A DNA stretch of 64,000 nucleotides from Micractinium sp. NFX-FRZ. Lineage: Eukaryota > Chlorophyta > Trebouxiophyceae > Chlorellales > Chlorellaceae. The stretch spans positions 1 through 64,000 of the forward strand of contig JAPTJF010000206.1 in assembly GCA_029339195.1 (NCBI GenBank), written 5' to 3'. A program made the position numbers and the translations under genes. Numbering within the stretch: the stretch's first letter is position 1; each line of letters starts with the position of its first letter. Below, in pieces: positions 1 through 64,000 of this stretch. The notes beneath the pieces are model-generated. The model saw nothing but the letters and a program-made list of their open reading frames with translations. It was not told the DNA's origin and made no database searches.

Positions 1-2694
1 AGACCCCGACTGGGCGCCCATAGTGCCCGGCTTCCGCCACCTCAGCGCCGCTGAGCTGGCGGCGTACGACCGCGAGGGCACGCACGCCCACGGCTGGTTC
101 TACACCACAATCATCACGTGAGCAGGCACAGGCAGTGCCGGAGGGAGGGGCAGGTCATTGAACATTGGACAGGCTTGTGCGGCAGTGGGGCAAGGTGGCG
201 GCATACGATTGGCATGCTGCTTCCACACCAGAGTCATAACGTGAGCGCATGAGCACGTTTGACCCCAGGTTAATAATATGTCATTAGCAAGCCCCAAACC
301 TGTACATGCAGTGGGTTGTAGTGGGTTTGGGCTCGCTACACTCTGCATGGCCCCTGCTGGTGCGGGCTGTGTGCCAGCCTGCCTGCCTGCCCTGCACAGC
401 CTGCCAACCGGCCCAACCGCCCGCTTGCTCGCCTGCATGCCAGCAATGGAAATTGATGGCCCTGCATCCCACCCCCTTCTGCTGTGCATACACACACGCC
501 ACATGCCTCCCCTCGCGTCCATGCAGCGAGGGGCGGTTCCGCAACTGCCCTGCCTCCCCACCTCCTCGGCTACGCACAATGCCAACCACTTTCCACTTTA
601 TAAGGTATCAAGTTTATTTCAAGGTTTGATTCAAGGTTGTCGAGAATAGACCCACACACTCCATGCTCCCCTGCCCTCCCATGCAAGCAGCGAGGGGCGG
701 TTGTACCTGGCCTGGCTGGCCCAGCAGCTGGCGGATGCAGGTGTGCGAGTGGTGGCCAGGCGGGTGGAGTCGCTGGCTGAGCTGGCGGGGCACGATGTGG
801 TGGTCAACTGCGCAGGTGAGCCTTGATTACTGGGCCTGACATCCCACGCTTGCTGACCGAGGATGCAGCGTGAGGGGTGGGTGGGAGTGATGCGTGGGGC
901 TTGGGGTGCTGTGGGTCTAGGTGGCTTCCAACCGGTCGGCGATGGGGAGGAGGGCCGAGGATCTCAGGACAGGCATCTGCTACAGCCCACCTCACCCTCT
1001 CCCTTCCGCGCTTCATCCAGAGTCTCTCATTTCCAGCCAAGCCCACCCATGCCATGCAGGCCTGGGTGCCCGGGAACTGTTTGGAGACGAGAGCCTGTAC
1101 CCTGTGCGCGGCCATGTGCTGCGTGTGCGGGCGCCCTGGGTGCGTGGTCCCTAGCACACGCTGCTTGCCGCTGGTTGGGCCTGTGCATACTGCTGCCCAC
1201 ACGCACGTCGGCTAAACACTTGGGCGGCCTGCCTGTTGAGGAGTGGGCCACAAGTGTCCGGGTACTATTAAGCACATTCTAAGGCACCGCTCTCCTGCAA
1301 GATGCGAGAGCCCATACTGCACCCCTTGCCTGCCCCCCTGCCCCCCTGCCCCCCTGCCTCCTCGTAGATCCGCCACTACACCAACAGCCAGTGCCCCGAC
1401 GGCGACTGCTACGTGAGCTGGGGCCTGGCTGCTGCACTGGGCATGGGTGGATGCTGCGCCCTGCAAAGGGTGTTAGGGTTTAGGGGTTTTAAAGGAGGCG
1501 CTGCTGTTGCCCAGCACGTCTGTCCTGCGCACGTCTGTCGCTGCTGCCCAGCCTGCCAGCAGCTTGTTGGATGGGTGGGAGGTGCAGCCTTGTCCCACCA
1601 TTCTCTTATGCTCACCCGCTGTGCCGCGCCTCCTCGGCACGATACGAACCACAGCATGCATGTGCGGCAAGTGAGCAGCTGCTGCCTGCCGCTGCCCCCT
1701 GCCCCTGCCCCGCAGATCATACCCAACCTAGGTGGGCGGGGCTGTTCCAAGTGGCAGGTGCCTGCTCAGCTCCCTGCACCCCAGCTGCCAGGGTGGCATG
1801 GCGCATGACGGCCGGTGTTGCCAGATGGTGTGGTGGCGGACGCAATATGAAGGGGCCTGGGGGCAGGACCACTGTGTGTGTTGAGTTTGCCCATGCGCCT
1901 GCCTGCCTGCCTGCCTGCCTGCCTTCCTACCAGCTCCTCAGCTGGTTCCCGGGCCATCCCCCTGCAAGCTTCCCACACATGCTCCACGCCTCTCCCCCCC
2001 ACATCACACTGGCTGCCCTGCGGCCTCCGCACCACCGCTGCACCGCCGCCGCTGCGCCACAGCACCACCTGCGCCTCCCTCGCCCTCCCAGCCTGCAGAC
2101 ACTGTGGTCCTTGGAGGCACAGTGCAGAAGGGTGACAGCGACACCACACCCAGGGAGGCCGACCGGCGGGGCATCCTGGACCGCGCCTGCCGAGTGCTGC
2201 CCAGCCTGGCGGCTGCCGAGGTGGTCACCGAGTGGGTGAGCTGGCCGGGTGGGTGCTGTGGCGGCAGGCGGAGTGGGCCAATGCACATGAGGGCTTGAGA
2301 TCAAAGTGGGTGTGCGTGCAGAGCAGCCGAAGAGCCAACGACATGCTGGCTGGCTCTGAATGCTGCCGCTGATGGGGCGTGTGCTGGGTGCAGGGCAAGG
2401 TTTGGTGTCCTTGCGGCGGCTACCACGCCCCCAGTGCTGCCCCATGTCATGCCAGGCACACCCCAGTGCACAGGGGTCGGTGCAGCGTCGCGGTGTTGCC
2501 GCTGCTGCTGCCGGGCACCCTGCCGACCCAACTCCCCTCCAAGCCAGGGCTGTGCCGGCCCACCTCTCTCTGCTGCCTCCTCCCGTCCTCCTGCCCGCCT
2601 GGCAGGTGGGCCTGCGCCCGGGGCGGCCCTCGGTGCGTTTAGAGCTTGAACAGCTGCCCCTCAGCCAGCAGCAGGGCGTGCCGCTCACCCCAGG

Positions 2695-2725
<31 letters not shown>

Positions 2726-3157: not shown

Positions 3158-3239
3158 CCGGGCTTCTACTTCTATACTGCGAGGCGTCAGCTTCCCCTGG
3201 CCTGGCCACGCAGGCCCCGCCTGAACGGTCCAGCAAGGG

Positions 3240-3244
3240 TGTAA
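3240..3244 (+). terminator. TGTAA polyadenylation signal of the D-amino-acid oxidase gene
   Basis: TGTAA, the usual chlorophyte poly(A) signal, 83 nt after the stop codon. Positional inference; no transcript evidence. Confidence 0.5.
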
Positions 3245-13800: not shown

Positions 13801-15115
13801 ACACGCCTGCACATGCCTGCACGCTCGGCGCCACAGTGCCCGCCCTGCCTCATCACATGCCCCCTGCGCAGCCTTCCTCTTGTACACTCTACCCACTGCA
13901 CCACCACTGTCACATCACAACCTTCTGTGTATGTTGCTCTACGGGGCACTACTGCTGTGGTGGGCACTGCTACAACAAAGAAATTGACCTGGGATGCACC
14001 TCGCCCCGCCTGGCTTCCTCCTGGCTTCCCTGCAGATGCGGGCCTGGGGGTACTGCTACATCGAGAACCTGACGTGGGTGTACCTGCACCCCACACATCG
14101 CATACTGGCGCTGCCCGGGCGCTACACCAACTGCTCCCACCTCACGCTCTACATGTTCCGGCGGGAGGGTGCGTGGGAAGGGCTTTCTTCGAACCAGGGC
14201 TTTTGAACTTCAGACTGAAGCGGCTTGGGGCCAGGACCAGCAAGCCACGGGGCCCCTGGCTGCGCCATGCAGCGCTGCTGCCTCGCTCTCCATGCTGCTG
14301 CATTCACGCCACTGCTGCTGCCTTGCTCTGCATGCTGCTGCTGCTGCTGCCTCGCTCTCCAAGCTGCTGCAGCCACGCCACTGCTGCTGCTGCTGGTTTT
14401 CTGAGCCTGGCATCAAGCTGAGTCGCACTGCATTTTCTTTTGCCCCCATCACAAGCGCAGGGGAGGGAAAGGACATTGAGCTGCGGCACCAGCGCAACCC
14501 CGACGTCACGTTCGACTGCCTGCCCGGCCCGCACAGTGAGCGGGGAGGGGCAGCGGGCCGCAGGGCATTTTGCATTTCGGCGGGCAGGCAGGGTCGGGTG
14601 AGGGTTGTCTTCATATGATCAAAGGGGAAGTGGCGGACCCGGCCTCCGGCTGTGCGGCGACCACACATGTGGGCGCTGCACCCGCGTGTATGCAAACCCT
14701 GTATGTATGCAAACCCTGTATGTATGCAAACCCTAAACCCTAAACCCTAAACCCTATCGGTGCGCTGGCATACACGCGGCCTCCGGCTGTGCCGCGCTGT
14801 GCTCCCTCCCCTGAAGCTGCGCCTCTGCCCACCATCCCACCCACCCACCCACTCGTGCACACACGTTGGCACGTCACCCTCCTCCTGCAACTGCGGCTGC
14901 TGCTCGCCATCATGCAAATCACCCTGCTCATCCTCCTTGCTGCCGCTGCTGCTGCAGGCGGGCGGCGGGTGCCCGAGGAGACTTTCGTTGCCATTGAGAC
15001 GCTGCTGCCGACAGCCAAGGGCAGGTTCCTTGAGCTGTGGGCGCCCCAGGGGGTGCACCGCCCCGGGTGGACCCACGTGGCAGAGGTGCCGGCGGGCGCT
15101 GCCGCCCAGGGCTGA
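10325..15115 (+). CDS. MT-A70-type methyltransferase-like protein with altered catalytic motif
   Basis: Eleven exons: 10325-10420, 10565-11002, 11384-11436, 11839-11906, 12169-12341, 12618-12772, 13170-13389, 13639-13731, 14036-14168, 14461-14535, 14958-15115, giving about 553 aa. The N-terminal half has poly-Gln/Ala, an acidic EEEVSDDEDM stretch and Arg-rich RARRRAAGR, suggesting a nuclear protein. The C-terminal half follows MT-A70 order: VLVNPGWE at the SAM/catalytic position, GFVFVFVQKQHV, WGYCYIENLTWV, HLTLYMFRR, RHQRNPDVTFD, FVAIETLLPTAKGRFLELWAP and HRPGWTHV. The canonical DPPW is NPGW here, so adenine methyl-transfer may be lost or the substrate changed, as in METTL14-type partners. 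The exon 6 donor (12772) is chosen for phase and is the weakest junction. Family call is from motif order, not a search. Confidence 0.82.
10755..10811 (+). repeat. Poly-Gln coding CAG/CAA tract
   Basis: Interrupted CAG/CAA run coding more than 15 Gln in exon 2 of the MT-A70-like gene. Confidence 0.9.
13961..14012 (+). repeat. Intronic echo of MT-A70-like exon 9 5' part
   Basis: gggcactgctaca…acctggg…tgcacctcgcccc parallels exon 9 14047-14092 (gggtactgctaca…acgtggg…tgcaccccaca). It lies just upstream of the true acceptor. Confidence 0.6.
14274..14395 (+). repeat. CTG-rich tandem repeat in an intron
   Basis: Imperfect tandem units built from gctgctgc-ctcgctctcca-gctgctgc and cacgccactgctgctg, about three copies, in intron 9 of the MT-A70-like gene. 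Confidence 0.8.
14686..14758 (+). repeat. Interstitial telomere-type repeat array
   Basis: Three copies of a 15-17-mer (gtatgtatgcaaaccct) run into three CCCTAAA units plus a partial unit. The array sits in intron 10 of the MT-A70-like gene, flanked by direct copies of cggcctccggctgtg at about 14640 and 14777. CCCTAAA is the plant/green-algal telomere repeat. Confidence 0.9.
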
Positions 15116-15503: not shown

Positions 15504-18500
15504 TCAACCGGTGCCCAGCACCACCCGGAACGCCTCCACCACCGTTTTGCACTCGATGATGCGGGCGCCCTGCAGCCGGGCGCTGGCGTGCACGTTGCTG
15601 CTGGCGGGGATGACAAAGGAGCGGAAGCCCAGCTGCAGGGAGGCAGGCGGGCAGGGAGGCAGGGAGAGGGAACAAGGCATGGCATGGCTGAGTGTGCCGC
15701 TGCGCTGCCCGCCCTGGCTGCCTCCACTAGCACTAGCATCAGGCAGCAAGCACTGCTGGGCCTGCTGGACACTTCCTGGTAACATGAGAACGAGTGTGCC
15801 GCTGCGCTGCCCGCCCTGGCTGCCTCTTTGAGGCCAGCTCACCGCCGGCGCACCCCACCCCTCGCCCAGCCCAGCACGGCACAGCACAGCGCAGCCTGCT
15901 GTGCCTGCTGCGCACTGCCCGCCACCCCACCCACCTTGGCTGCCTCTGCGATGCGCCGCTCGATGTTGCCCACCGGCCGCAGCTCGCCGCCCAGGCCCAC
16001 CTCCCCGATCAGCGCAATGTCGCGGCCAATGGGCTGCAAGGAGGGGCAGCAAGACAAAGGCAGGGCGGGGAGCAAGGGGTGGGTGAGCAATGTCGGATGA
16101 GCCATGGGCTGCAAGGAGGGGCAGCAAGACAAAGACAGGGCGTGCAGCAAGGGCAGAGGGCGCGGGGTGGCCAACGTCGGACGGCCAATGAGCTGCGGCA
16201 GAGAGCAGGGAAGCAGGGCAGCGGCCAGGGAAGAATGCGGACGTCCAATGAGCTGCCTATCCATCTGCCCGCCCCGCACCGCATCTGAGCTTGCCTTGTG
16301 AACACATATGATGAGCCAACGCTGCCTGCCCACCATGCCCTTGCCTGCCCGCCGACATCGCCTGCCTGCCCGTGTCCCTGCCTACCTCCTTACCCCCCAC
16401 CCAACTCGCCTGCTCAAAGTAGGACGAGGCAATGGCGCAGGCGACCGCCAGGTCGGTGGCTGGCTCGTTCATCTCCAGGCCTGCAGGAGGGATGCGTGGG
16501 GGCTGAAGTTAGATCTGATGGGGCAGAAACGTGAGGGCGAATGTGAGCTGGACATGTGTGAGCGTGCAGGGCAAGGAAGGGCCAGGTCGGCAGGCCAGCT
16601 CATCCCCAGGCTCTTAAGAGGGGTGCTGTGGGGGCACGAGGGCTCACGCCCCATAACACTGATGTGCACATCCACGCTGCACGGTCGCAGCACGCCCAGC
16701 ACAGCGCAGCACAGCACAGCATGCACAGCACAGCACAGCGCAGCACAGCACAGCATGCACAGCATGCCCCCCCTGCTCACCCCCCGTCACGTTGATGTGC
16801 ACATCCACGCTGTATGGCCGCATCTCTGTGTGCTTGCCCAGCACCGCCAGCAGCAGCGCCAGGCGCTGGCGGTTGACGCCCGACGGCATGCGCATGGGCG
16901 GCTGGCCCGAGGCTTGCGGCACCGGGCTGCACAGCGCCTGCACCTCCATCAGCAGCGGGCGGGTGCCCTCCAGCACCACTGGAGGAGGGAGAAGGGAGGG
17001 CGGGAGGAGGGGGCGTGGCGGGGCAAGGCATAGATGAGTGAGTGAGATGGAAGAGGGATTGCCTGAGCCTGAATCAGCAATGGGCGGGTGCCCTCAAGGG
17101 CAGATGCAGGGGGAGGCGGGCGGCCGGAGAGGCGGCGAGCAGAGTGTGTTCGTGCGTGTGCGTGTGTGCACAGGGGGCGATTGGCAGTGGCTGGCTTGCG
17201 ACGCCCCAGTAGGCCTCCCAGTCCACCAACACAGCACCCGCCCACCTGCCCGCCTGCCCTGTGCCGCCACCGGGCTGCACACCGGGCCCCCGTGCCCCCC
17301 AGCCTGGTCAACCACCTGCCCCGACTCTCCCCAGCCCAGTCGCCCACCTAACCCCTATGCCCCCCACCCCTGCCGCCCCCACCTGTCACCGCTGAGCTGA
17401 CGTTGGGGGAGAGGTCTCGGTCGGAGAGGAAGAGGGCAGAGGGGTTGGCCACCACCTGAGCGCGCGGAAATGGGGAGTGGTGGCAGGAAATGGGGGGTGG
17501 GGGCAGGAGATTGAGCAGTCTGGGGAGGGGGGGGAGCAGGCAGGGGCAAGCCGAAACGGTTCGTCAACACACACTCTGCAGCGTCCATCACTAGATGAGA
17601 CGGGTTGTGTGAGAGAGGCGCGGCCCACCTGCACGCCGTCGTCGTGCAACTTCAACACACGGCATCCATCACTCTTCATCGATAACCGAAGCAGTTCATT
17701 TCAAGCAGGCAGGTCCCACCTGCATGCCGTACACCGCTGTAAACACCCCCTGCACCCACCTGCTGCGCCTGCACCAGCTGGCAGCAAACACTTGACACCA
17801 TCCATCTCTACGCAAAACGAAGCAGTTCTTTCACAACAGTCAGGGCCCCACCTGCATGCCGTCGTCGTGCATCTCAAACACGCCGACCTCGTCGGTGTTG
17901 CCGTACCGGTTCTTGATGCAACGCACCTGATTTACCAAAACAAACAAACAGGAAGGAAGGACGGGGAGCAGGGAGGCAAGTTGTTGATGATGCACCGCTT
18001 GGGGGGCTCCTTCTGCCCGCCTGGCAATTGAGCCGCCCCACAGGCTGCTGTCGCTCCGACTGCCTGGCCGAGGACCCTTTTACGTGAGAGCGGTTAGCAA
18101 GGGGCGAAGCTGCCACTCCCCTCCATACTCGCCAGCCAGCCTCCGTGAATTGTCAACACATGAACCCCCCCCTCGGTCATTGGTCAGCGGCCGGACGGCA
18201 AACCTCCCAGGCTGTTGCCCGCCCCCACCTGCCCTGCCCCCACCTGCACTCACCAGCCTCACTGGCTGCTGCCGCCCCCCCTCCATGTACACCGCCCTAC
18301 CAGGCCGCTGCCCGCTCTGCCTCCCTCCGCCCTGAACTCACCAGTCTCACTGGCTGCTGCCGCCCCCCCTCCATGTACACCACGGTGTCCACAATGTGCT
18401 CCAGCACTCGCGGGCCTGTTGGGGTGGGGAGATGGGGAGGCACATGTGTGGGTGGGGGGGGGAGATGGGGAGGCATGTGTCAACAATGTGCTCCAACACA

Positions 18501-20617: not shown

Positions 20618-20648
<31 letters not shown>

Positions 20649-29071: not shown

Positions 29072-29105
<34 letters not shown>

Positions 29106-40000: not shown

Positions 40001-40505
40001 ATCTGTCGGCCTGGGTCTTTTTAGCAGCTGGAGGGCTCGCTGGCCAAGGAACCGCTGTGGTGGGTGGTGCTGCGGGTGCACTTGCTGCTGCTGGTGGTGA
40101 TGACTGGCGGGACGGGGAGATGTACTGGAGCCACCTCGCCCGCGGGGCCGAACTGCCAGCTGTGCATGCAAGGCCGTATGCTGCTGGCAGACGGCGGAAA
40201 CCGTAAGTTCAAACAATCACCTGCCTGCTGCCTCCCCCTCCCCTCCCATTGCCCCTTCTTGCAGGGCCGAGCTGCCAGCTGTCAAGGCGGGGCGTGTTGT
40301 GCTGGTGGACGGCAACCACATGTTCAACCGCCCGGGGCCGCGCCTGGTGGATGCTTTGGAGTTCCTGGTGGGACTGCTGCATGGCCGCCCCGAGGTTATC
40401 CCCAAGGGATTCCCGTGGGAGTGGTGGCGGGGCCCGCCGGCAGCGGCAGCGGCAGCGGCAGAGGGTGCAGAGGCGGCGGCAGGCGCCGAGGCGGCGGCGG
40501 CGTGA
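37045..40505 (+). CDS. BtuF/TroA-like substrate-binding protein (cobalamin-binding type)
   Basis: Family of bacterial ABC-transporter binding proteins (COG0614; BtuF-like) that bind cobalamin or chelated metals. Exons: 37045-37269, 37405-37458, 37584-37685, 38096-38171, 38333-38603, 39118-39267, 40265-40505, giving 372 aa, or 344 aa from the Met at 37129 just before LRVVSLLPSATE. Family landmarks: VVSLLPSATEVV, GRSHECDFPPEV, SADVDRQVREAL, LYTVDRQLLTELRPDVIVTQ, LCEVCCVDY, VVDLNPRSLQDVLADVRRLG, LEWVAPIFMGGHWTPQLVEMAGG, RPDWVVVALCGLGLE and VLVDGNHMFNRPGPRLVDALE. It resembles bacterial homologues end to end but has six introns and an Ala-rich tail, so it is resident in the nuclear genome. No bacterial-type signal peptide is seen. 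B12 is inferred from family only. A TGTAA lies 263 nt after the stop. Confidence 0.9.
38823..39060 (+). repeat. Echoes of BtuF-like exon 6 5' edge
   Basis: cagggac(a/g)gc…cgggcttt-ccgatgagccgcc versions at about 38832-38870, 38963-39000 and 39038-39060 precede the true acceptor (cagggacggcggcgg at 39115). Confidence 0.65.
39268..40205 (+). repeat. Array of echoes of BtuF-like exon 6 3' end, plus one exon 7 echo
   Basis: About six degraded copies of aaggagctggagg-ctcgctgg then ccaaggacccgctgtggtg (true copy 39230-39270) at about 39363-39400, 39478-39525, 39620-39660, 39745-39772, 39865-39905 and 40025-40062. Larger modules beginning tgctggagctcactt recur at 39329, 39586 and 39830. 40143-40200 copies the exon 7 5' edge (gccga-ctgccagctgt). 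Confidence 0.93.
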
Positions 40506-44000: not shown

Positions 44001-47000
44001 AGGTGGCGCTCAGGTGGGGCGGGGGAGGGCGCTCTTCGGCACGCAAGGTACAGTGCGCTGCCGCTGGGGCCCTGTCAATGTCCTAGCGCATGGTAGAGTG
44101 TATTGCTGCTGCGGGCCCGGCCCATGGGCCGCTCTGGCTCTGCCGGTCTAAGACGGCGCCTAGGTGGGTCGCTCCTGGGCAGGGGTGAGCTCTTGAGTGG
44201 TCTGATGGGGGTGAAGCGGTCAGGCCAGGATTCAGTGTGGCCAATTGCTCCAAGTCGCGCCTAAGCAACCACCCAGCCCTTTCTGTGGCCCCGCGTGACA
44301 TGGGCGTGCCCGCTCGCCTTCCCCTCCCGCTCCCCTCAGGCTGCGCATCCACCACCTGCTCAACAGCCCGCCTGGCGCCGAGTCGCACACGGTGCTGCTG
44401 ACCGACATACCCGGGGTGGCCTATGGCACGGTGCCTCACCGCATGGACGGCACCCTCCTGCGCTTCCTCCCACGCAGTGAGGGCTGGGGGGGAGTGGGGA
44501 AGGGGCCAAAGTGCAGCACACTAGTGCCAGTTCGGGGAGGCTGTTGTGGTCATGGCTGGTCAGCTGGCTGGGCTTTCACTGGGGGGCAGCAGGCTCCCCG
44601 TCTGCAGTCTTTGCCTCTCGGCCAGCCTGGGTTGTATGTACCCCTCCTGAGCGCGCCCCGCCGCTTCACCTCACCATTTCACGCCTGCAGGCATCAAGGC
44701 GCGCCTGGCGGGGGCCGCCAAGCAGGGTGTGCGGGGCATCAGCAGCCAGCTGAAGCTGGGCGCCAGCTGGGCGTCCGGCAAGGGGGGCGCCCGGCAGGCG
44801 GCGCCGGCGGCAGGGGAGGGCAGCAGCACCAGCGGGGGGGCCTGCGGGGATTTCACCATTGCGGCGGCTGGGGGTGGCACAAGCAGGGCGGGCGTGGAGC
44901 TGACGCTGGCGCCCAAAGCGGCGGAGCGGGCGTGGGACCAGGCGAGGGGGAGAGGTTGTGTTGGGGGGAAGGAGGCGTGCAGCTTGCCGGCCTGCAGACA
45001 GCTTGGCAGCATCTGGCGTGCTGGAACATGGGTGCAGACAGCGCAGTGGCAAGAAAGAGCACAGCACGCAGCCGCTCCGCTCTGCACCGCCCTCGTGCCT
45101 GCCAGCCATGGAGGGGTTGTTCAAGACTGGGGTGTGGCCGTGCCAGCCGGCAGGCGGCGCCACCACACAACCCTTCCCTCTAACCTGTGGGGCTCCAAGC
45201 CAGCCTTGTCCTCCGGCTCATGCTGTTGATTCAGTTCCTTTCCCACCACCGCTGCCGCGCCCGCCAACTGCACGCAGGCGCTGCGCCAGCTGGCGGGCGG
45301 CGCCACCATCCAGCAGGTGGTGGACGCGCAGCTGCGGGCCGTGTTTGGCAGCGACTACCAGCACGTGAGCGGGTGCAACGGTGAAGCAGTTTGTGGCTGG
45401 CCCATAAGCACGGGCACTTGAGTGTGACCACGCGCTAGCTTGCCCTGCAGTCGCCCGCGTGCCTCCTCTCCTCCCTGCTGCTCGCATGCATCCCTACTGC
45501 TGCATACCCATGCCTCCCTGCTACCCTCACAGGTCTTTCTGGCGCGGGACACCACCCAGCTGGACCCGCTCGTGGGTGAGCAGGCGGGGGCCAGGTTGGA
45601 GAGTGGGTGGTGTGAGGGCGGAGCTTGAAAAGGGTTGGGCTTGTTGCGGCAGGCTCCCCCTCCATGCTGCCTGAGCCTCTCCACCAAGTGTTCACCTTAC
45701 TCGCACCCATCGATCCCGCATGGTACCACAAGAGGAGTACCAGGGTGTGCTGCGGTCAGCGGGGGAACTGGCGGGGCTGCCGCCTGTTGCACCTGCGCAG
45801 CGCTGAGAACCCAACACACCACCACCTATCGCACCGACCCCTCGTTTTGATTTCCTTTTGCCTGCCTGCAGAGGAGTACCAGGGCGTGCTGCGGTCAGCG
45901 GAGGACCTGATGGACCACTACCTGTCGCTGAGGAAGCGCAACCGGGACATTAAGCCCATCAAGGTGAGGGGGGCTTGTGCAGAAGAAGCGCTTTTGGCTG
46001 AGAAGCAGTGCAAGGAGGCACTTCACCATGCAGAAGGTCGGAGGCACAGGGACCGATCGGGGGAGACTGGGAGTGAGGTCCTGCGGAGTGGCAGCCTGAG
46101 CATGCTCATGACGTCTCGTGACATGTGCACACCCATGTGGCACGTGGCATTCCACCTCAGAGATCCAGCTTTCTCAAACACAGCACACATGCTCCGCCGT
46201 CCGCGCATCCCTGCCGCCTGCCGCCAGATCACCGTGGTGCCGGTGCAGTTTGGCGGCTGGGGTCTGCAGCGCTACGGCCCCGCACCGGTGCGGGTGGACG
46301 CGCTGCAGCACTACAGGTGCGCGCAGGGGAGTGGAAACGGGGTTTTGTGGGGACGCCTGCAGGCCACTGCAGCGGGTGGGGGCCCGAGGAGATAGCCGGC
46401 GCCCAAGCCGGCTTGTGTCCCGTTTCAGCGCATTTCTTCACAAGCATGTCTGGACGAGCTGACGGATCTTATGTGGGTATGTTTCACAGGGCTGCCGTGT
46501 GTAGCTTCGCTGGCCGGCGTGTGGCAAGACGCCTGGCTGTGGGGCCCCTGCCCCGATCCCGTGCCTGAATCTTATCTGTGCCTGCCCAGGGACCGCCTGG
46601 TGGAGCTGCGCCGGCTGATCAGCGAGGAGCAGGAGGCGGCGCGGCAGCAGGTCACGCCCTCCGCCTTTGTGACCTTCAAGACGCGCAGGGCGCAGGTGGG
46701 GTGGAAAAGAGGTTGGGAAGGCGGGGGAAGGGTGGCCCGCCCTTGGAGGACGTCAGCTTGGACGCCTGCAGGGGGTAGGTCGCATGCATTGGCGGTTAGA
46801 AGTGGGTCATAAGAGAGCTCCCGGACTGAACGTGTTGTTGGGGGGCAGGCGCCTCTTTTCGAGATCATTGCACAGTACCGCAGTGCAAGAGGGACCCACG
46901 GCAGAGCCCCCGTCACACGCCCTCACTCACACCCTCCCTGCCGCCCCCCCTGCTGCCGCCCAGGTGCTGGCCTCCACCTCCCTGGTGCACCACGACATGT

Positions 47001-50000
47001 CCGCCTGGCGCTGCCACCCCGCCCCAGGGCCGGGGGAGGTGGTGTGGAGCAACGTGGGGTGAGGAGGGGGAACACAGTCTGCTGCCCCGGCTGCCTGGCT
47101 GGCTGCCTGCGGCATGCAGGCAGCAGGTCTGCTTGCCACGCATTGCAGGCTGCTGCCATCATTGCCTCTCCAACTGCTCAGCCATTGCAGCCCGCTGACA
47201 CCAGCGAACTGCCCCCGCTGCCGCGCCTCCCTGCCAGGTGGCGCATGTGGGAGCGGCGCGGCCGCCGGCTGCTCATGTGGGCCGCCTTCTTTGCGCTGGC
47301 CCTCTTCTACATGGTGCCCGTGGCGGCGGTGCAGGTATGCTCCGGATGTGACAGCAGGATGGGAAAGGACGTGTGCTCCCCGCAGCGCCTGTGCTTGTGC
47401 CATCTTCGGCATGGAGGTACATGCCGTTGCCCTCGCAGCTGCTATCTAGATCGGTGTGCTCCCCCGCCTGGCACTGGTGAAAAAGGGAAGAGGGACGGCC
47501 TGGGTGCGTGAGAGAGGCACGTTAGCCCAGCCGGTGTGCTGGGAGACGAGCGGGCATGAGGGTGTGCCAGCTCAGCAACGCCCCTGGCCGCTCCTCCCAC
47601 CGCTGGCCGCTCCCTGTTGGGCCTCACACTCTGTCACAGCTTCCTTCCCAAGCGTGCCTTCCTCACTTACCCGCTCTACCACCCCCTTGCTTGTCCCGCA
47701 CATCTCCTCTCCACAGTCCCTCCTGGCCCTCAACAGCCTGACTGCCTTCTTCCAGGGCGCTCCCTCCCTTCCTACCCACCACCTCCCCTGCCCTGCCAAA
47801 CCCTTGCCTGCCGCAGTCCCTCCTGGCCCTCAACAGCCTGACCGCCTTCTTCCAAGGCGTGCCGCTGCTGAACGCGCTGGTCACCGCGGTGCTGCCGGGC
47901 CTGGTGCTCAAAATCTTCCTCAAGCTCCTGCCCGCCCTGCTGGCCTTCATGGTCCGCTCCTCAGGTGACGAAATAAATGATTGGGATGGCTGGTGGGAGG
48001 TGAGGGGCCTGGCAATGGTTCCGCAAGCTACCGCCCGCCCTGCCGGCACTCAAGGCACGGTGCCCCAGCAACATTGGAGGGGCGTAAGAGGGGCAGGAGG
48101 GAGGGAGGGGCAGGGGCCATGGCCGCCATGCAGCCCTCTGCTGGGCAGGCACGCGTCCCGCTCTGCCTCCCTGCTCGCCTCACCCCGCGCGTTTGCTGGC
48201 TGCGCGGTGCTGTGAGCGACTCATCATGGCATGCCTCGCTCTGCCTTCCCGCTCACCCAGCGCACACCTCTCCCCGCTGCCTCACCCGGTGTGCAGGCGC
48301 TGTGAGTGAGTCGGCGGTGGACATTTCATGCCACCCACGTTCACTTTTTTTTGCCGCTTCGCCTGCTGTGGTCGATTTGCCTGCTGTGCAGGCGCTGTGA
48401 GTGAGTCGGCGGTGGACATGGGCGTGCTGCGCACCTTCTTCATCTTCCAGGTGGGGCCTCCATGTAGCTCTGTCTAAGGTGGCACGGGGTTAGCAGTGGA
48501 TTGGCAGAGAAGGGGGTCGGGCGGCAGGGGGCGTGCTTTCTTCGCATCCCGTCCCCAGCGTGCCGCACCCGTCCGTAGCAGCGTGCTGGAAACCGCAGTT
48601 CGGGTGAGGTTCCATTGCCGCCGCCCCGTCGCATTCCCACCCTGCTCCTGCCAACACCCCCCTGCCCTGCAATGCTGTGCCAGGTCATCACCATCTGTCC
48701 TTCGGGTGATACAGCCGGTCCCACTGCCTCTCCACCCTGTTCCTCCTGCCCCGCTTGCCTCACTTTTGTTGAGCAGGTCATCACCGTCTTCTTTGGCTCC
48801 TTCATAGCCGGCTCCTTTGCCAACCAGGCAGGCTGGGCACGTGTGTCTATAAGGGCGGGCCCGGGCTGGGCAGGGCAGAGGAGGAGCACAGGAAGCCCTT
48901 GCATCGTCTGCTGCTCTGGCGCCCCGCTGCCCAGCTCCCACCCCTGCAGGCTTGGGCGGGCAGCCCTGCCCCTGTAACCCCCTGCATCCGTTTGGCGTCA
49001 TCTGCTCACGCTGTCAACTTTATCGCTGATCCCTGCCTTCGTCACCTGCCCTCTTGCAGATCAAGCAGTTCGTGCGCGACCCTGGCTCCGTCCTCACCAT
49101 ACTGGGCACCGCCGCGCCACAGACGGCCATTTTGTGAGCCCAGCGGCCGGCGGTGGTGGTGCTGCTGCTGCACGGTGCACTGCAGGGAGAGCAGCCGCGG
49201 GGTGGCACGGCTTGCCTGCCAGGGTCCCATGCTGCTTTCAACTCTGCTGCGCTGCGCTGCGCTCCATCTCCCCTCACTGCCTCCCCTTCTCTTTCCCCCC
49301 CTTCCCTGCGGGGGCAGCTTCACCACGTACCTCATGCTCCAGGCGCTGCTGGCAAAGCCCCTCTCCCTGCTGCGCCCGCCGGGCCTGGTCATATTCTGGC
49401 TCAAGCACAGGCAAGGCAGGGGGGGGCAGGGGAGGGTTGCAGGCATGCGTGGGATGCAAGGGCATGACGATGTAGTGCATGCCCTCGCCCCTCCCTCTCC
49501 TCCCCTGCCCTCCCTGCTAACGACCCCCATTCCCCACAGGGTGCTCCGCCACTTAGGACAGGGACTCGCGCCTCGCTCATCTCCCCTGCCCTCCTACCCC
49601 CTGACCCCTGCACCCAAAGGCTGGGCCGCCACCGAGCGAGCCATAGCCAGGAGCTGCTACCTTCCGGAGGCTCTAAGCAAGCCCGCTCGTCTCCTCCTGT
49701 GCCCCTTCCCCTTCCTCCCCTCTGTGCCTCTGCGCAGGCTGGCCGCCACTGAGCGGGCCAAGGCACGGGTGTGGCAGGACCAGGAGCAGACCTACGGGGG
49801 GCTGGTGCCGGGTGAGGGCAGGGAGGGGGTGGAGAGGGCCAGCCTGGCGGGGGAGGAGTAAAGTCAGCACCTGTCTATGACGGCCTGGCAACCCCACTTG
49901 GGGCACACAAAACAACCTGGCCTGCTGCACAATGCCACCCGACCACATGCCCCTGCCCCCGCCTCTGCCCTGCCCCACCTCAAGCCCCTCTGTCCGCGTG

Positions 50001-53000
50001 CCCGCCCCTGCCCTGCCACGTACAACGATATGGCGCTGCCGTGCCTGGCGCTGTTCACGCTGCGTCGGCATGGACATGCGGCCTCTCATTGCTGTTCCCT
50101 CACCACAGCTGCAGCGCCCCTGCAGACGACACCACGGCGCTGCTGCTGGGCCTGGTGTTCTGTCTCCTCACGCTGCCTGCAGTCGAGCACATCAGTTGTT
50201 CCCCTTGTTGTTGCTCTTCTCCCCACAACCTTGCATCTTTTCTTTCCTCCCCTCCCGCAGACGACACCATGGCGCTGCTGCTGGGCCTGGTGTTCTGCCT
50301 CATCTGCCCCATCATCGCCCCCATGGCGCTCCTGTACTTTGCAGTGGTGCACCTGGTGAGGGTGCTTGGGGGCATTGGGTGGTGCAGGTGCAGCAGCAGC
50401 TGCAGGCGTTCAGAAAGGGGTTCAGTGGGTTGGTGCACCTGGTGAGGCTTCTCATGAGGGTGGTGCAGCGGCAGCTGGGAAGCCGGGGGAACCCCTTGAG
50501 ACCCGTCTCATATGCTTTGCAATGGTGCACCTGGTGAGGTGGCTTGGGGACACTGGGTGGTGCAGCACTAGCAGCCAGTGCTTGGGAGTCTGCACCTTGC
50601 ATCCGCCGCTGGCGGGGTGGGCAACCGGGGACTCTCCAGCACATGTGGGCAACGGGGTGCTGTGGCAAAAGGTGTGGCAAAAGGTGCCGCCCATGGCGGG
50701 CCGCGCGCCTCACACTGCAAGGCAGCACTCCTGGCAAGCCCCCCTCACGGCCTGCCCACCTCCCCTCTGCCCCAAACACCAGCTGCTCACCCTGTCCCCA
50801 CGCTGCCTCCCGCCCCCCCAGGTCTGGAAGTACCAGCTCCTGTACGTGAAGAGCCAGCGGTACCAGAGCGGCGGGCAGGCAAGCGCTGCGGTGCTGCCCG
50901 GGGGGCGTGGGAATGCAGTCCCAGCAAGCATGTGCAGAGGGCGGCCGCTTGCTGGGCTGGGACCGGCGGCTGTGCCACTGCATGAGCTCACACAATTTGG
51001 CTGGGGACGGTTGGCGCCACGGAGGGACGGCTGGCACCACTGGAGGGGCAGCTTTGCTTTGCCCCGGGGCGTGTGGCGCGACCTCTGGAGCAGCTGTGCT
51101 GTGCCCCATGAACATGAAGTGCCTCTTTTGTCCGACTGCCTGCCGACCTGCCCCACTTTCCCCCCCTTGGCCAGGCCTGGACCCGCGTGTTTGGCCAGAT
51201 CTGCTTCGCCCTCATGCTGTTCCAGGCAACAATGGTGGCCATACTGGGTGGGCGGGGTGGGGGAGGGGGGTGGGGTGGGGTGGGCTCCATGGGCGGGTGG
51301 GCGGTGGGGAGTGGATGGATTCTGTGGCCACCACTCTTCCCAACACAACTGCTTTTCCCACGCCCCTTGCACCCGCAGCCATCAAGCGGGCAGTGGTTAT
51401 ATTATGAAAGGTGTCTCACTTAACTTCACGCCCCTGCCATCCTGTTGCGCTGCAGCCATCAAGCGGGCAGTGGCGCCGCCCCTCATCGTGCTGCCGCTGC
51501 TGCCCATCACCGCCGCCTTCTGGTGGTGGTGCCATGCCCTCTTCTGGCGCCCGCAGCAGGTGGGCCAGGGAAGGGGGTCCCGTCAGGGCAGGCACGACAG
51601 GGATGGGTGAGGGTGCCTCGCCCTCTTCTGGCGCCCGCATGCTCACGGGCGGGTGCACAGAGCATGTGTTGGCGGCCCCCGGGGGAGGAAGCTGCCGGGC
51701 TGGGTGGCCTCGGCGCTTGCTGCCGGCTCCCGCTGCTTCCAACAGCCTGGGGGGAAGGTCAGCCCCTGCAGGCGCCTCTGAAGCTCCCAGGCTGCCCGTC
51801 AGTCTAACTATATAGTCACGCAGCAAGCTTTGCTTTCACGCCGCCTCAGTAGTTACAGCACCAGCCCTCCTCCCTTGCTGCAGACCCTGGCGCTGGCGGA
51901 TGCCGCCAAGCTGCAGCTCCCGGAGACGGCAGCAAGCTTCAATTCCCGCCGCCATGTTACTAGTTACTGCACCAGCCCTCCTCCCTTGGCTGCAGACTTT
52001 GGCGCTGGCGGATGCTGCCCAGCTGGACCAGGAGGAGCAGGAGGAGGGGGGGCAGGATGAGGCAGGGCAGCAAGAAGGGTCGCAGGACGGCGAGCAAGGG
52101 CCGCAGCAGCCTGGGAGGTCAGCGGAGGCCAGCCGCGGCGCCGCAGGGAGCAAGGGCAGCAAGCCGGCGTCGCAGGTGTGTTGGCAGGATGGGCGCATGT
52201 GGGCTTGCCACGTGTGCCCGGTCCATGCAGGCAGGCTTCCATTCCAGGGAGTTACGATCTCCCCCCCGCCGCTCAACCTGTCCCTTGCCTCCCACCTGGA
52301 CCTGGGCTGCACTGCCACCCTCCCTGCCCTCGCACTATTGCGGACGTTTTCCATACCACACATCCTCCCCCGCAGCTCTACCTGTCCCTGCCTTCCAACT
52401 TTTTCCTGGGCTGCACTGCCCCCCACCTCTGCCCCTGTCGCGGTACAGTAAAGCCCCTGCCGTTTTCCGTGACTTCCCCCTGCAGCTCTACCTGTCCCCC
52501 GCCTTCCGGCTGGACCTGGGGGCCGGGTTTGGGGCGCTGCTCTACGAGGCAGACCTGATGCTGGCATTCCTGGGCGGGGCCGGCTCTGCTGATGCCGGAG
52601 CGGAGCTGGAGGTGCGCTTTCCTGGGCATCGTGCATGCATGCATGCATACATGTATGCTCCTGTTGTGGCTGCATGTCAACAAGGGGGCAGGCAGGAGGA
52701 AGTTCGGCGGGCGCTGCCCTGTGACACCGACTGCATGCCTGGCCTGCGACGGGGGCCTTGGCGGTTTGCAGCCTGGCCTGCAGTTGCGCCAGCTGGCGAC
52801 GATGGCGGTGGAGGCTGCATAACCCCTCGCGCCCGTCCCCATCCCGTCGCTCCTCTCGTCTTCCAGCCGCCGCAGCTGCAGCCGACCGCCACGGAACAGG
52901 CTTCTACAAGATGTGCCTGCCTTCACTCACACACACCCTCCGGCCCTTTTACAAAAACACTTGCAGGCCCTGCAGCTGCGCCAGACCGCCACTGTGGAGG

Positions 53001-59203: not shown

Positions 59204-61043
59204 ATGCAGCGCATCGGGTTGGCCGCGCTCGGCAGCGGCCTGCGGGCAGGAGAGGTCTTGGCTTCGGGCGGGGCCGCTGGAGCACTGCTGGCAGCCCTGC
59301 GGCGAACCCTTGGGGGCGCAGGCGCTGGGGCGCTCGCACCTGGCGCCGTCCCGCCCCTGAGCCGCGGCTCTGCGCAGGTGAGCAGCTTGACAACCTGCCT
59401 CAGGCCTTGCCAGCTGGCACCCTATGGCTTGCCTCGGTCCCTGCCAGCTGGCATTGTGCGCTTCTGGGTCCCTGCCGACTGGCACGCTACAGGGTGCCAA
59501 GGAAGGAGCGTGCAAAGTGTAGCATCCCAACCCTCGCCCGACTGCTTGACGTGCTGCCGCGTTGTGCAGCCCTGCCGAAGACCCCTCACCCCCTCGCCCT
59601 GTGGCTTCCCCCTTTGTCCTTTCTGCACCATCATCATACAGCGTCCCCCATTGCCCTCAGTTAAAAGCATGCCGACCTGCCGCACCAATGCCCTGTGTGC
59701 CAGTTCGCCGCACAATCCAATCCTGCCGCCCCGCTCATCAACTTCCAATCCTGCCGCCCCACTCATCAACTGCCCCCCCTGCAGGATGCAGCGGTGGACC
59801 ACCCGCACCACCAGTATGCCGACAGCCACCGCCCAGGGGATGCCTCCATCACCTACCAATCCGTGCTCACGCGGCGCATGCAGGCAAGCCCTGGGCACGC
59901 CGCCCACACGCCTGCTGCATGCCTGCCTGCTGCCTCCAGCTTTTTGACTGCTTGTTGGCCTGTTGGTCTGGGGCCGGCAGTGCGCTGGTCGTCATGCAGG
60001 CAAGCAACCAAGACATGCTTGGACTAGCTAGCTGTCTTCATGTGCCCTGAAGTCCCGCTGCCCATGTGGCAGTACAGGGGAGGCATGCTGCATCATAAGC
60101 TGGCCTCCCTGTCTTCCTTGTTTCCTTGTTACCATATCCCACCCAATTGCGTGCTGTCCCCCCCAACCCCACTGCAGGCAAAGGGGCAGCCGCTGACGGA
60201 GCGCTACAACTCGCGGCCCCAGGGGCCGCCCTCCCACGCGCTGGCTGAGGTGGCGGCGGCGCACGGCGTGGCAGACAGCACCTCGTTTGAGGCAGCTGTG
60301 CTGAAGCTGGCGGTGGAGCGGCAGCACGGGCTGGTGAAGCACACACCGGAGGTGGCGCGGTTCCTGCGGGTGCGCCCTTCCATTGAGCCCACTTTTTGTT
60401 CATAGCTGAGCTGGCATTTTGAGGGCGGCTGTGCTGAAGCCAGCCGTGGGGCGGCAGCATGTGCTGGTACACAACTTGTGGCAAACTCTCCCCCCGGCAG
60501 AACCAGGTTCTGCCCAACCAAACGCCTGCCCGCCCACAAACCGGGGCACGTGCCTGCAGACGGCGGGGCGCATGCTGCAGCCTGCGTTCATGCCCACCGG
60601 GTCACATGTTTGTGTGCCCGCCTCCCCGCCTCCCTCCCTCCCTCCCTGCTCCCCTTGCGCTCCCACGGGCAGAGCCAGCACCCGACGTTTTGTGTGCCCC
60701 CTTTGCTGCCCCCCTGCTTTGTGCCTCCGGGGCCTGTGCCTGGAGACGGTGGGGCCCATGCTGCAGCCCGCCCTCCTGCCCACCCTCCTTCCCTTCTTCC
60801 CCCCCTCTGCAGAGCCGGGGCCTGGGGCTGGAGACGGTGGGGCGCATGCTGCAGCACTGCCCCGCCCTCTTCTCCTTCCCAGCCGAGGAGCGGGTGGAGG
60901 TGCTGCTGGCGGAGCTGACGGGGGACAAGTGCGGGCGGAGCGTGGAGGAGGCGGCGGAGCTGTTCATCGCCTGCCCCTCGCTGGCCAGCACGCGCCACGT
61001 CATGCCCTCCATCGCGCGCGTCGTGCACGACCAGCACACCTGA
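59204..61043 (+). CDS. Small mTERF-like protein, probably mitochondrial or plastid
   Basis: Exons 59204-59377, 59785-59883, 60178-60369 and 60813-61043 give 231 aa. An Ala/Gly/Leu/Arg N-terminus fits an organelle transit peptide. The C-terminal half has an mTERF-type helical repeat: HTPEVARFLRSRGLGLETVG, RMLQHCPALFSFPAEERVEVLLAEL and a second, weaker CPSLA-type repeat. mTERF proteins bind organellar nucleic acid and affect transcription, splicing or ribosome assembly; members usually have many more repeats, so this one is short or truncated. Intron 2 is GC-AG (CAG|GCAAGC). Introns 2-3 and the 3' flank carry echoes of the exons. A TGTAA at about 61744-61748 is the only one seen downstream and is far away. 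Confidence 0.6.
60421..60780 (+). repeat. Echoes of mTERF-like exon 3 3' half and exon 4 5' edge
   Basis: 60421-60475 copies exon 3 (ggc-gctgtgctgaag…gggcggcagca). 60542-60590 and 60728-60775 copy the exon 4 start (gcctg-gcctggagacggtgg, then ggc-catgctgcag; true 60819-60860). Confidence 0.9.
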
Positions 61044-61172: not shown

Positions 61173-61489
61173 ACACTCCAGCCTTCCTCCCTCACTGAGG
61201 GAGTGAGTTAAGGTCTCTCTCACCCACCCTACAGCTCAACACACTGATGACGATGATGAAGGGTGAGAGGAGTTTATTTCCTTGCAGGCCGCAGGCTCGC
61301 CGCCCGTGCCCTCCTCTGACACGATGTGCGAGGCTGGAGGCCGGGCAGCGTATGCGCGCCGGCCAGCACATGTATGTATCCACATAGCGCCCGGCACCGT
61401 TGCCGCTGCTTGTTCCCCGCTGGGTTGACCGCTGGACCCTGCCAGCCAGGCGCCCCCTCTGGCAACGCATGCCCACGCCGCCACGACGA
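61173..61489. other. Convergent region, mTERF-like / discoidin-domain genes
   Basis: Between a plus-strand and a minus-strand 3' end. No gene assigned with confidence; a long minus-strand open frame crosses it. Confidence 0.4.
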
Positions 61490-64000
61490 GTAGACGCACA
61501 GCACACTCGATACACACACACACCTCCCAGCACTTGTGCTCCACCCCGCAGCTGGTCGTGCCCCCTTCCCTCCTCTTCTCTTTGGCGCTCCCCGCTTGTT
61601 GCTTGTAGTTTATTGAATCCTTGCCGGACGTATTGTTTTGGGCACACCTGCTCCCACATTTTTGTACCGAGGTGGCGGCGGGCACGCGCCCCGCCCAGTT
61701 TTTCCTGCCCCTTGCCCTGCAACTGGCACCCGGTGGCCTTCCCTTGTAACCTGCGCACAGACCAGGCGCAGCAAGGTGGCACCCACCCACTGGGTGCCAG
61801 ACGTGCGTGTAGCCGTCTGCACTCTGTAGAAACGGTATGGCGTGTTGCTTCTGTGTTTAACAGTAATGCAGTGTGTGATACAGTTGCCAGGCACACACGT
61901 GCTACATTCAGTGGTGATACAGCCGGTGAGGGGCGGTTGGCACAGTGGTGTGCGATGAAAATGAATGAACGGTCGCGCTGGGACCGGCACAGGTGTTGAA
62001 ACCGGGCAAAGGGACGCAAGGGTGGGTGCGCAGGTGGGAAAGCTGGAGTGCAAGCCAAAAAGGCCTGCTGGTTCTTGACATCAAACACATCTGCGGTCGA
62101 CTGCCGGCGGTGCTGCCACGAGCCGATGGCAATGACGGTACGCGCCAGTGCCACCAGCAGCGCAGAGACACGCACAAGCGGCTGTGCTGATACGTGAAGC
62201 CGTGACTTCCTTAACGGATTCCCCCGGCATTGTGCGGCAGGGAGGAGAAAAGGTAGTGCCGCAACCTTTGCTGCGGCAGCGCAGCCTGCGATGACACAAC
62301 CTGTGATGCGGCATTTCACGCGGTGACTGCGCAGGGGAGCGGACGGGCGCAGCAGCGGCGGAGCGTCAGGGAGCAGGCGTGGCGAGTGTCCAAGTGGCCA
62401 CCACAGTCGCAACCTGGCAATGCCCAGGGCGTGACATCAGACAGAGAGCTGCAAAAACGAATTGTTGACATGGGCGCCACCCGTGCTCACCTCGGGCATA
62501 GACCGTGACCTCAGCGATTGCCAGCTGGGACAGAGCGCGCGCCACGCTGGACTTGAGCTCTATTGACACGTAGCGACCCTTCATCGGGGTGGGCACCACC
62601 CTCCTGCCCACTGTGCGGCTGCAGGTCACCGACGTGCCTGCGGCTGCCAAGGGGCCGGCAGCTGCGGCGCACAGCACAGCCGGCCTGCATGTAAGAGGGA
62701 CCACAGGGGGCGTGGAAAGAGGGGTCGGCGGGGTGGCTGGTGCACACACCCCCGCCCTCTCGTCGCATGCCGACTGCCCCGCTGCCGCTGCCGCACGTGT
62801 TCAACCAGCTCACTGTAGCCAACACTGCCGACTCCACTGCCCCCACATGCGCAGCGCACGCGCACACCACTGGGTGCAGCAACATGCTGAGGTGCGCGCA
62901 CACCCCATGCCAACCTGCGATCCAGCCCGCTGTCTGGTCTGGTGACGCTGCGGGTGGCCGCAACATCTGTGACCCGCACTGTGAAGCTGTGCTTGTTGGT
63001 GGATGCGGGGGCACCCAGCCTGGTGGCACCCGGGGTGATGACCACCCGCTGCACCTCGTACCGCCGGCCCAGGTCGATGCTCAGCCAGGGGGTGGCCTGA
63101 AGTACAAAATACAGGTGCGTGGAGGGGCAGTACGGACAACAAGGTGGGCGGTGCAGCCGCTTCAAAAAGTGCACCACTTGGCACGACGTCACACAAGCTG
63201 CCCGCCGGGCCTCCACAGGATTTGAGCGCTGCATCAATGGTGGCCGCCACATACCGTCGAGCTCAGAATGCCAGTCAGTACCTATCAAGCCCTTGCCAGC
63301 AGGAGCCAGCGGGTGGCCCCGCAATGCCTGCTTTGGCGCTGCCTGCCCACCTGCGCAACGGTCATGGCAAACGTGGCTGGTGCGCCGTCGATGGCCTGGC
63401 CGGCTGGGTACACCAGCGTCTTGGCGCCCACACGCCTGCTGCCCACCGAAGAGGCGACCGCCGTTCTACCCCTGAGGGCAAGAGCTGCACACACAAGCAG
63501 GGGCGGGGTCACCACGGTGGGTAACAAGCGGCCGTGAGTGCATCAACAATGCCAAGCACGTGTTCAGGTCCAATGCGAGAGTGGCTGGGATGTGCGGTGC
63601 CACAGCTGAGCTCACCAGTGAATGGCACGGGAGCGGGCGGAGGCGGACGGGGTTTGGGTGGAGGGGGTGGGGAGGGTTTGGGAGGGGGAGGCGGCGAGGG
63701 TTTTGGTGGTGGAGGTGGGGAGGGTTTTGGTGGTGGAGGTGGGGAGGGCTTGGGCGGTGGAGGTGGGGAGGGCTTGGGCGGTGGAGGTGGCGGGGAGGGC
63801 TTGGGCGGTGGAGGTGGCGGGGAGGGCTTGGGCGGTGGAGGTGGCGAGGGGCTTGGCGGTGGGGGTGGGGGAGGGGAGGGGCTGGGCGGCAAGGGTGGCG
63901 GGCTGGGCAGTGGAGGGGGGGGTGGGGAGGGTGCACTGCATGCATCCAGGAGGGCATGAGGTGGGTGGGTGGGAATGGTTTCTCCAGCTGGGAGAGGCAA
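61490..64000 (-). CDS. Pro-rich protein with F5/8 type C (discoidin-like) domain, 5'-partial
   Basis: Probable secreted or cell-wall protein. The start lies beyond the window. Exons (minus): >64000-63616, 63484-63351, 63096-62915, 62684-62491, and probably one from 62090. The first segment is a hydroxyproline-type SPPPPPKP stalk like algal cell-wall glycoproteins. Then comes a galactose-binding-like F5/8 C domain: GRTAVASSVGSRRVGA, AIDGAPATF, ATPWLSIDLGRRYEVQRVVI, HSFTVRVTD and MKGRYVSIELKSSVARALSQLAIAEVTVYA, the expected W-IDLG and GRYV-I…E-VY landmarks. The 3' end is unresolved: the frame entered at 62090 stays open to 61192, but composition is doubtful, so the lower boundary is arbitrary. 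Ligand unknown. Confidence 0.65.
63640..63870 (-). repeat. Coding minisatellite, Pro-rich stalk
   Basis: Units of about 24-27 nt, read on the plus strand as ggcttgggcggtggaggtgg and variants, encode SPPPPPKP-type repeats on the minus strand; about eight copies. Confidence 0.93.

Follow-up and report, generated by a model that had tools for sequence, protein, structure and literature searches.

Introns of this compact algal genome contain direct copies of the edges of the exons that adjoin them, referred to here as echoes. By one protein, the alga is placed near Micractinium and Chlorella. The sample comprised a 64-kb stretch (the window) and, from other contigs of the same 66-Mb genome, 28 stretches of 10 kb whose ends often cut genes; our own ab initio gene predictions supplied 1062 exon edges for scoring. 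Exon-only sequence, up to 60 nt per edge, was compared with the bodies of the adjacent introns by SW score. At SW ≥32, 70 of the 1062 edges matched an adjacent intron, against 1 for the reverse complement, 0.2 for a dinucleotide shuffle, 0.0 for non-adjacent introns of the same gene and 0.8 for introns of other loci; at SW ≥28, the count was 89, against 4, 2.8, 2.1 and 3.3 in the same order of controls. The proposal of the initial annotation, that exon edges recur in adjoining introns beyond what shuffled or non-adjacent introns would give, is thus borne out. Chance or composition as the source of echoes is ruled out by the shuffle, reverse-complement and intron-swap controls.

A gene-blind blastn search over 344 kb, with low complexity masked and pairs of score ≥36 at 40-300 nt considered, recovered 130 direct pairs and only 1 inverted pair, with 87 of the direct pairs sitting at 80-140 nt. 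The echoes themselves had been placed 60-300 nt from the real edge, a range that is correct but conceals a concentration of 58 of 80 at 80-140 nt. The exon part is 20-60 nt long in 66 of the 80 cases, and the offset is nearly constant across four intron-length classes (medians 100, 119, 123 and 130). Both 5′ and 3′ exon edges are echoed, in keeping with the earlier description of direct copies occurring singly or in arrays, and the graded decay reported there is reflected in identities of 67-100%. Individual echoes in the window follow, given with the exon and edge that each copies, together with one array.

216..246, plus strand: exon 46-117, 3′ edge; older echo, 84% identical
491..555, plus strand: exon 691-815, 5′ edge; older echo, 75% identical
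18203..18293, minus strand: exon 18342-18415, 3′ edge; near-complete tandem unit with an offset of about 90, matching 46 nt into the intron
19558..19628, minus strand: exon 19744-19821, 3′ edge; 90% identical, lying 138 nt away and including about 48 nt of intron
20154..20206, minus strand: exon 20294-20874 of the RadA-like gene, 3′ edge; copies 20287..20339 at 51/53 positions
39209..40131, plus strand: array of repeated exon-edge units with periods of about 120 and 257
45731..45770, plus strand: exon 45872-45963, 5′ edge; copies 45870..45909 at 92.5% from 139 nt upstream, sharing only the AG of the splice site with the real edge
47711..47759, plus strand: exon 47817-47964, 5′ edge; 94% identical, 100 nt upstream
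48290..48324, plus strand: exon 48392-48450, 5′ edge; copies 48385..48419 at 35/35 positions from 95 nt upstream, with an unlike spacer
50119..50169, plus strand: exon 50261-50355, 5′ edge; copies 50254..50304 at 92% from 135 nt upstream
51375..51396, plus strand: exon 51456-51559, 5′ edge; 22/22 identical, 77 nt upstream
60541..60793, plus strand: exon 60813-61043, 5′ edge; two echoes in succession (60541-60598 and 60727-60793)

The echo at 20154..20206 lies 133 nt from the edge it copies and has a GTGAG of its own after it; its peptide occurs once in the homologs P0001-P0003, with which the exons of the RadA-like gene agree over most of their length. This echo was partly predicted as an exon by the gene finder, and since all gene models are ab initio, the echoes might be suspected of being an artefact of chance similarity, low-complexity sequence, mispredicted genes or misassembly. 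Such an origin is extremely improbable, as the signal is clean in four controls, pairs are also found by the gene-blind search, divergence is graded and the RadA-like exons are corroborated by homologs. Protein repeats misread as introns were rejected for the last of these reasons and because exon-exon pairs are few (9 of 138 local pairs). The objection that the copies are assembly artefacts, anticipated in the initial annotation, is unlikely to hold given the graded identity, the presence of echo cases on 19 of the 28 other contigs and a degraded counterpart of 491..555, recognized by eye, on contig C594. This contig carries one diverged second copy of window positions 5-4987, too short to separate gain from loss; the search for a second haplotype turned up nothing else for the echo regions, and a scan of viral contigs yielded no DNA of relatives. 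The C594 counterpart of 491..555 yields no local repeat at the blastn threshold, while the echo at 216..246 lies in a stretch missing from the C594 copy, so that its presence differs between the two segment copies.

Ten of the 15 gene models in the window bear an echo at SW ≥28, and an eleventh gene (46-3157) has two older echoes visible by blastn only, making the original figure of at least 12 of 14 genes an overstatement. The 28 other stretches contain echoes in 29 of 72 genes, which supports local direct duplication across the genome sample. Counted by edges at the same threshold, 33 of 221 bear echoes in the window against 56 of 841 elsewhere; the window is thus richer than the rest of the sample.

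The fate of the copies was followed in 61 cases. Excluding 7 that end short of the junction, the splice dinucleotide is intact in 17 of the 25 that echo a donor and in 17 of the 29 that echo an acceptor, so that the splice site said to accompany echoes usually is kept by most of them and has been lost by 20 of 54. Mismatches fall at the three codon positions in the numbers 82/112/122, the synonymous share is 0.35 versus 0.28 for random changes, and 17 of 207 gaps, counted over the whole match including its intron part, are a multiple of three. The offsets of the 80 echoes are distributed over the three frames as 25, 27 and 28. This even spread, the mismatches at all codon positions and the frame-breaking gaps argue against protein-coding use, and the echo copies drift like neutral DNA with no sign of coding constraint, which is rejected by the codon-position, synonymous-share and gap counts. 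Duplicated alternative exons would exhibit constraint and a kept frame in both copies, and neither is seen here. Although many echo splice sites score within the range of real ones, as might be expected of alternative or decoy exon edges held by selection, such a function is very unlikely in view of the absent constraint, the broken frames, the offsets in all three frames and the lost dinucleotides.

The echoes are probably the product of recurrent short direct duplications, with an offset of about 80-140 bp, that leave a surplus copy in the intron to decay neutrally. Short-range direct duplications would recur in gene-dense DNA with this preferred offset, and one that fell across an exon-intron junction would generate two exon edges, each with a splice site. 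Were the real site to stay in use, the surplus copy would become intronic, leaving the protein unchanged and the intron one unit longer; it would then decay as neutral DNA, and repeated rounds could build arrays. The primary event would be a DNA duplication, probably through fill-in repair of staggered breaks or replication template switching. Junction-spanning copies would survive because splicing hides the surplus copy, and a pair would remain visible for longer than an intron-intron duplication because one partner is a constrained exon. Among the 138 local pairs, junction-intron pairs number 61, against 22.8 under random placement of the same pairs, and exon-exon pairs 9 against 13.7, an excess and a deficit that would follow if copies were tolerated only across junctions or within introns and if an exon partner kept a pair visible for longer. 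Random placement predicts 28.6 intergenic pairs but only 9 occur, which implies that the process or its visibility is non-uniform. Of 25 intron-intron pairs, 13 themselves copy the edge of the neighboring exon at a score of ≥30, leaving aside copies that overlap the stretch at that edge. Three further repeats in the window bear on how the copies were made.

14637..14796, plus strand: intronic 23-nt direct repeat, 21/23 identical, whose spacer contains a telomere-type array ending in (AAACCCT)4
15690..15826, minus strand: two intronic blocks, 35/35 identical and 102 nt apart, with unlike spacer and flanks; by eye they resemble the exon edge at 15935, with a score of 24, below the cut of 30
23928..24211, plus strand: perfect 142-nt tandem duplication beginning 4 nt before the end of exon 23550-23931

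Duplication is favored by the last of these, a perfect unit starting at an exon end, and by the 29 of 138 pairs that are tandem-like, their copies covering at least 0.8 of the offset. The identical blocks at 15690..15826, with their unlike surroundings, speak against plain tandem duplication, and neutral decay alone leaves the 109 spaced pairs unaccounted for. Median offsets are 105 for tandem-like and 123 for spaced pairs (p=0.002), with overlapping ranges. When simulated neutral tandem duplications were passed through the same detection as the real data, 4-15% of young echoes matched no more than 10 nt of intron, versus 11 of 29 observed, and among older echoes 19-33%, versus 54%; by blastn, 15 of 34 young matches stop 3-10 nt past the junction. 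Some of the young copies, which lack a shared intron side, thus do not fit the favored reading; for these, severalfold faster spacer turnover, repair filler or later re-copying of the exon block may each be considered.

The last of these would have the exon, by gene conversion or a process involving spliced RNA, repeatedly overwrite an old tandem echo while the rest drifts. The 29 young echoes display a profile of this kind, with identity of 0.81-0.97 across the last 20 exon bases and 0.93 at the splice dinucleotide, falling to 0.71 at +3..+6 and 0.49 at +7..+10 and, beyond that, lying near the level of unrelated splice sites; a faint remnant of homology in the spacers, reaching p≤0.05 in 7 of 25 young cases, also fits. 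Exon-limited re-copying is nonetheless rather unlikely, since intron-intron blocks, free of exon constraint, have the same pattern, and an echo older than the segment duplication has, by eye, diverged between the copies like ordinary intron. Equally unlikely is a short copy with filler, whereby an overhang of 20-60 nt is duplicated by fill-in and 50-100 nt of unrelated DNA is inserted between the copies. This would accommodate the direct orientation, the unlike spacers and the repeat pair at 14637..14796 that flanks telomere-type repeats, and direct repeats reported in new Daphnia introns are likewise ascribed to staggered breaks (PMC4202315), but it makes the overlapping offsets of tandem-like and spaced pairs a coincidence. 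Moreover, 15 of 17 spacers (from window 45500-52600, a plus-strand gene, and from two other sampled loci, L007 and L024) match nothing elsewhere in the assembly in a search that skips simple repeats and common words, and captured DNA was rejected as their source on this ground; of the remaining two, one holds a GT microsatellite with many matches and the other overlaps a 69-nt match at 76%. Further searches, each scoring 39 of its candidates, brought up mainly simple or low-complexity repeats and are little informative about spacers. Finally, it is quite doubtful that copying respects the exon border as such, placing exon sequence as far as the splice consensus some 100 nt inside the intron, with splicing or its RNA helping to make or refresh the copies; if it did, much of the intron length of this lineage would descend from exon ends.

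Under the favored duplication with neutral decay, the duplication would itself be the cause of extra intron length. Median intron length is 250 nt without an echo, 335.5 nt with one (+85.5 nt) and 470 nt with echoes on both sides (+220 nt), increments that suggest roughly 100 nt added per event; echo-bearing introns as a whole have a median of 362.5 nt. Once offsets are subtracted, they are shorter than other introns (215 versus 250, p=0.001). Long introns offer more room in which to find an echo, so the association is no proof of gain, and of the earlier claim that the process creates, lengthens or shifts introns, the lengthening stands as an association from which the cause is inferred, and shifting is unsupported, the exons of the RadA-like gene following their homologs over most of their length.

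In the AGGT model of intron gain, duplicated copies supply both ends (GT and AG) of a new intron, and introner elements are sequences shared among the introns of many genes. The echoes resemble the former in being direct local duplications, as in potato RdRp, where a duplicate spans an intron-exon boundary and another tandem duplication, of 83 bp, lies inside an intron (PMC4974935), and a review tabulates 188 events of intron gain by tandem duplication over several species (PMC3443670). There a new intron arises, whereas here the copy sits inside an existing one, about 100 nt from the edge and not at the far end, and the creation of introns is therefore unsupported. Introners, named in the same review (PMC3443670), share with the echoes a genome-wide process adding intron sequence; similar sequence in many introns is not what the 17 spacers revealed. 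In Daphnia, internal direct repeats of new introns were proposed to lengthen them, and repeats of the adjacent exon ends also occur (PMC4202315), although these exon-derived repeats measure 4-12 bp, whereas the exon parts here are mostly 20-60 nt, at an offset mostly of 80-140 nt. Small tandem duplications from fill-in at DNA breaks (PMC8355091) are likewise direct and short in unit, but their copies are adjacent, whereas most pairs here are spaced by sequence that no longer matches.

No title among the literature listings describes such echoes in chlorellacean algae. The Chlorella variabilis NC64A genome paper may, however, mention coding repeats in introns. Annotators should be cautious, as intact-looking exon ends within introns may be read as false exons. 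For the origin and length of introns, one compact algal genome provides dozens of events that range in age and seem to have added roughly 100 nt apiece, beside an exon partner that serves as a slow-changing reference; with such ages and such a reference, the rate, unit length and mechanism of intron growth become measurable.

The assembly of Micractinium sp. NFX-FRZ comprises 838 contigs with 66,065,352 bases in total (GC approximately 66%), and the sample drawn from it covers 344 kb, namely the window plus one 10-kb stretch from each of 28 other contigs, the stretches having been selected before inspection and mostly from long contigs. Genes were predicted ab initio with a generalized hidden Markov model, self-trained on the sequence, which learned CAG/GTGAG-like donors and TGCAG/G-like acceptors (the slash marking the splice site) and predicted 546 introns in the sample. 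The window bears 16 models, of which 15 contain introns and have a coding length of 250 bases or more. Among five window proteins compared with Pfam, four scored above a family cut-off (mitochondrial carrier, 5-FTHF cyclo-ligase, periplasmic binding protein and FAD binding) and one was without a match.

Echoes, the degenerate direct copies of exon edges, are strongly enriched in the introns that adjoin those edges. For each edge, the 60 exon bases nearest to it, excluding splice-site bases, were aligned to the adjoining intron. This comparison covered 1062 edges of the 546 introns, those whose query or intron body was too short having been dropped. At a score of at least 32, 70 of these edges match the adjoining intron, compared to 1 for the reverse complement, 0.2 for dinucleotide-shuffled introns, 0.0 for non-adjacent introns of the same gene and 0.8 for other loci. 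The existence of such copies, which the initial annotation had described as pervasive, is thereby borne out in the comparison with shuffled and non-adjacent introns that it had proposed, and an earlier alignment on a smaller set of 420 introns displayed the same pattern. At a score of 28, echoes occur in 10/15 window genes, fewer than the at least 12 of 14 of the initial annotation, and 29/72 genes of the other stretches, and in 33/221 versus 56/841 edges, a richness of the window that is expected because it was picked for the pattern.

A blastn search made without gene information, with low complexity masked, returned 130 direct pairs and a single inverted pair at 40-300 nt (score of at least 36). 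The two copies lay 80-140 nt apart in 87 of the 130 direct pairs. In the edge alignments, the offset, or distance between copy and real edge, had medians of 100, 119, 123 and 130 for introns of <250, 250-350, 350-500 and >500 nt, respectively. Tandem-like pairs, covering at least 0.8 of the offset, account for 29 of 138 local pairs, and the other 109 are spaced. Random placement of the same 138 pairs served as the control for their location.

Classes of the 138 local pairs, observed and under random placement
Junction-intron: 61 observed, 22.8 random
Intron-intron: 25 observed, 27.4 random
Exon-intron: 19 observed, 20.3 random
Exon-exon: 9 observed, 13.7 random
Intergenic: 9 observed, 28.6 random
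Other classes: 15 observed

Thirteen of the 25 intron-intron pairs include a copy that itself aligns with the adjacent exon edge (score of at least 30, edge-overlapping copies excluded), and arrays therefore make up approximately half of that class. The exon part of the echo is 20-60 nt long in 66 of 80 cases (score of at least 30), while the match may extend at least 40 nt into the intron, end at the splice consensus or stop before it.

Echoes are also associated with intron length, the median being 250 without an echo, 335.5 with one (n=60) and 470 with both edges echoed (n=10); for introns of at least 200 nt, the difference between echo and echo-free introns has p=4e-9. Subtraction of the offsets leaves echo introns at 215, shorter than 250 (p=0.001), and subtraction of the visible copy only leaves 288.5, still longer than 250 (p=0.004). 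Each event therefore seems to add more than the visible copy but less than the whole offset, with the proviso that longer introns also leave more room for echo detection, for which the 200-nt cut is the sole correction.

The copies bear the marks of neutral decay. In 61 cases, echo-exon mismatches fall at codon positions 1/2/3 in 82/112/122 instances, and the synonymous share of differences is 35% versus 28% under random change. Among 207 gaps, 17 have a length divisible by three. GT or AG is retained in 34 of 54 junction-reaching echoes, and the offsets of 80 cases occupy all three frames (25, 27, 28).

If a stretch of about 80-140 bp across the exon-intron junction were duplicated in direct orientation, this would account for the orientation and offset of the copies, their arrays and neutrality, and the association with intron length, the duplicate then surviving via splicing. 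A residue beyond simple neutral tandem duplication is the short intron sharing of young echoes (exon identity of at least 0.88). Across the 29 such echoes, identity is 0.97 beside the junction, 0.49 at +7..+10 and 0.40 at +21..+40, compared to 0.28-0.35 at matching positions of unrelated splice sites. No more than 10 nt of intron is shared by 11/29 (38%), versus 4-15% in simulated neutral tandem duplications of all ages under the same detection and 0.15 to 1.5 gaps per substitution. The spacers between echo and real edge in 25 young cases display weak residual homology to their predicted partner (p<=0.05 in 7 of them, median p 0.12); some echoes were therefore probably once full units, with spacer turnover probably faster than that of the exon copy. 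In three cleanly searched stretches, 15 of 17 spacers had no match elsewhere in the assembly; of the remaining two, one contains a microsatellite of GT units, and the other overlaps a 69-nt stretch matching at 76%.

Window 5-4987, which carries a putative oxidase-like gene, has a diverged copy at 27262-32071 of contig C594 (32,071 bases, 22601-32071 compared), with 84-98% identity in exons and 74-88% over the aligned bases of introns, 47-100% of intron bases being alignable. Of its echoes, that at 216-246 falls within a window-only stretch and is absent from the C594 copy, and that at 491-555 has a decayed counterpart there, judged by eye; so, in this one segment, echoes have been either gained or lost since the two copies split. 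No local repeat was found in the C594 copy at the blastn threshold used. The end of C594 coincides with the start of the window, and visual inspection of its copied gene shows a TAA in frame and a gap of one base.

One intronic site carries a different type of sequence:
Window 14687-14755: telomere-type array of about three 17-nt units followed by (AAACCCT)4, inside a 23-nt direct repeat pair

This single case, the sole array in the examined sequence with at least two AAACCCT units, would be consistent with break repair in which filler was added. Other repeats include an array of 24-nt units in a predicted exon (63650-63898), which resembles sequence on dozens of contigs of the assembly, and similar genes in tandem at 53902-55286 and 56949-58641 (two blastn stretches of 72% and 82% identity), where the middle of a common intron is unaligned.

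Tandem duplication is an established route to introns (PMC3443670, PMC4974935), new introns of Daphnia are reported to contain break-derived direct repeats (PMC4202315) and fill-in repair has been demonstrated experimentally to yield small tandem duplications (PMC8355091). The algal echoes differ from all of these in gene share, preferred offset and length of the exon-edge copy. None of the literature titles searched, a set that leaves out the key genome paper, concerned exon-edge echoes in chlorellacean algae.

The RadA-like gene (minus strand) exemplifies a practical consequence. Its predicted protein is closest to those of Micractinium conductrix (73% identity across the whole query) and of Chlorella vulgaris and C. 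variabilis (86% over 60% and 53%, respectively), an affinity that very probably places the alga in the Chlorellaceae, and its exons, low-complexity linkers excluded, can be aligned to three homologs, one partial. Two of its introns contain CAGCA-type arrays (16688-16764 and 18819-18994) with relatives on many contigs. A 36-nt echo (20161-20196) was called an extra exon by the gene finder, doubling a peptide that is single in the homologs. Echoes misread as exons in this way may sit in public gene models.
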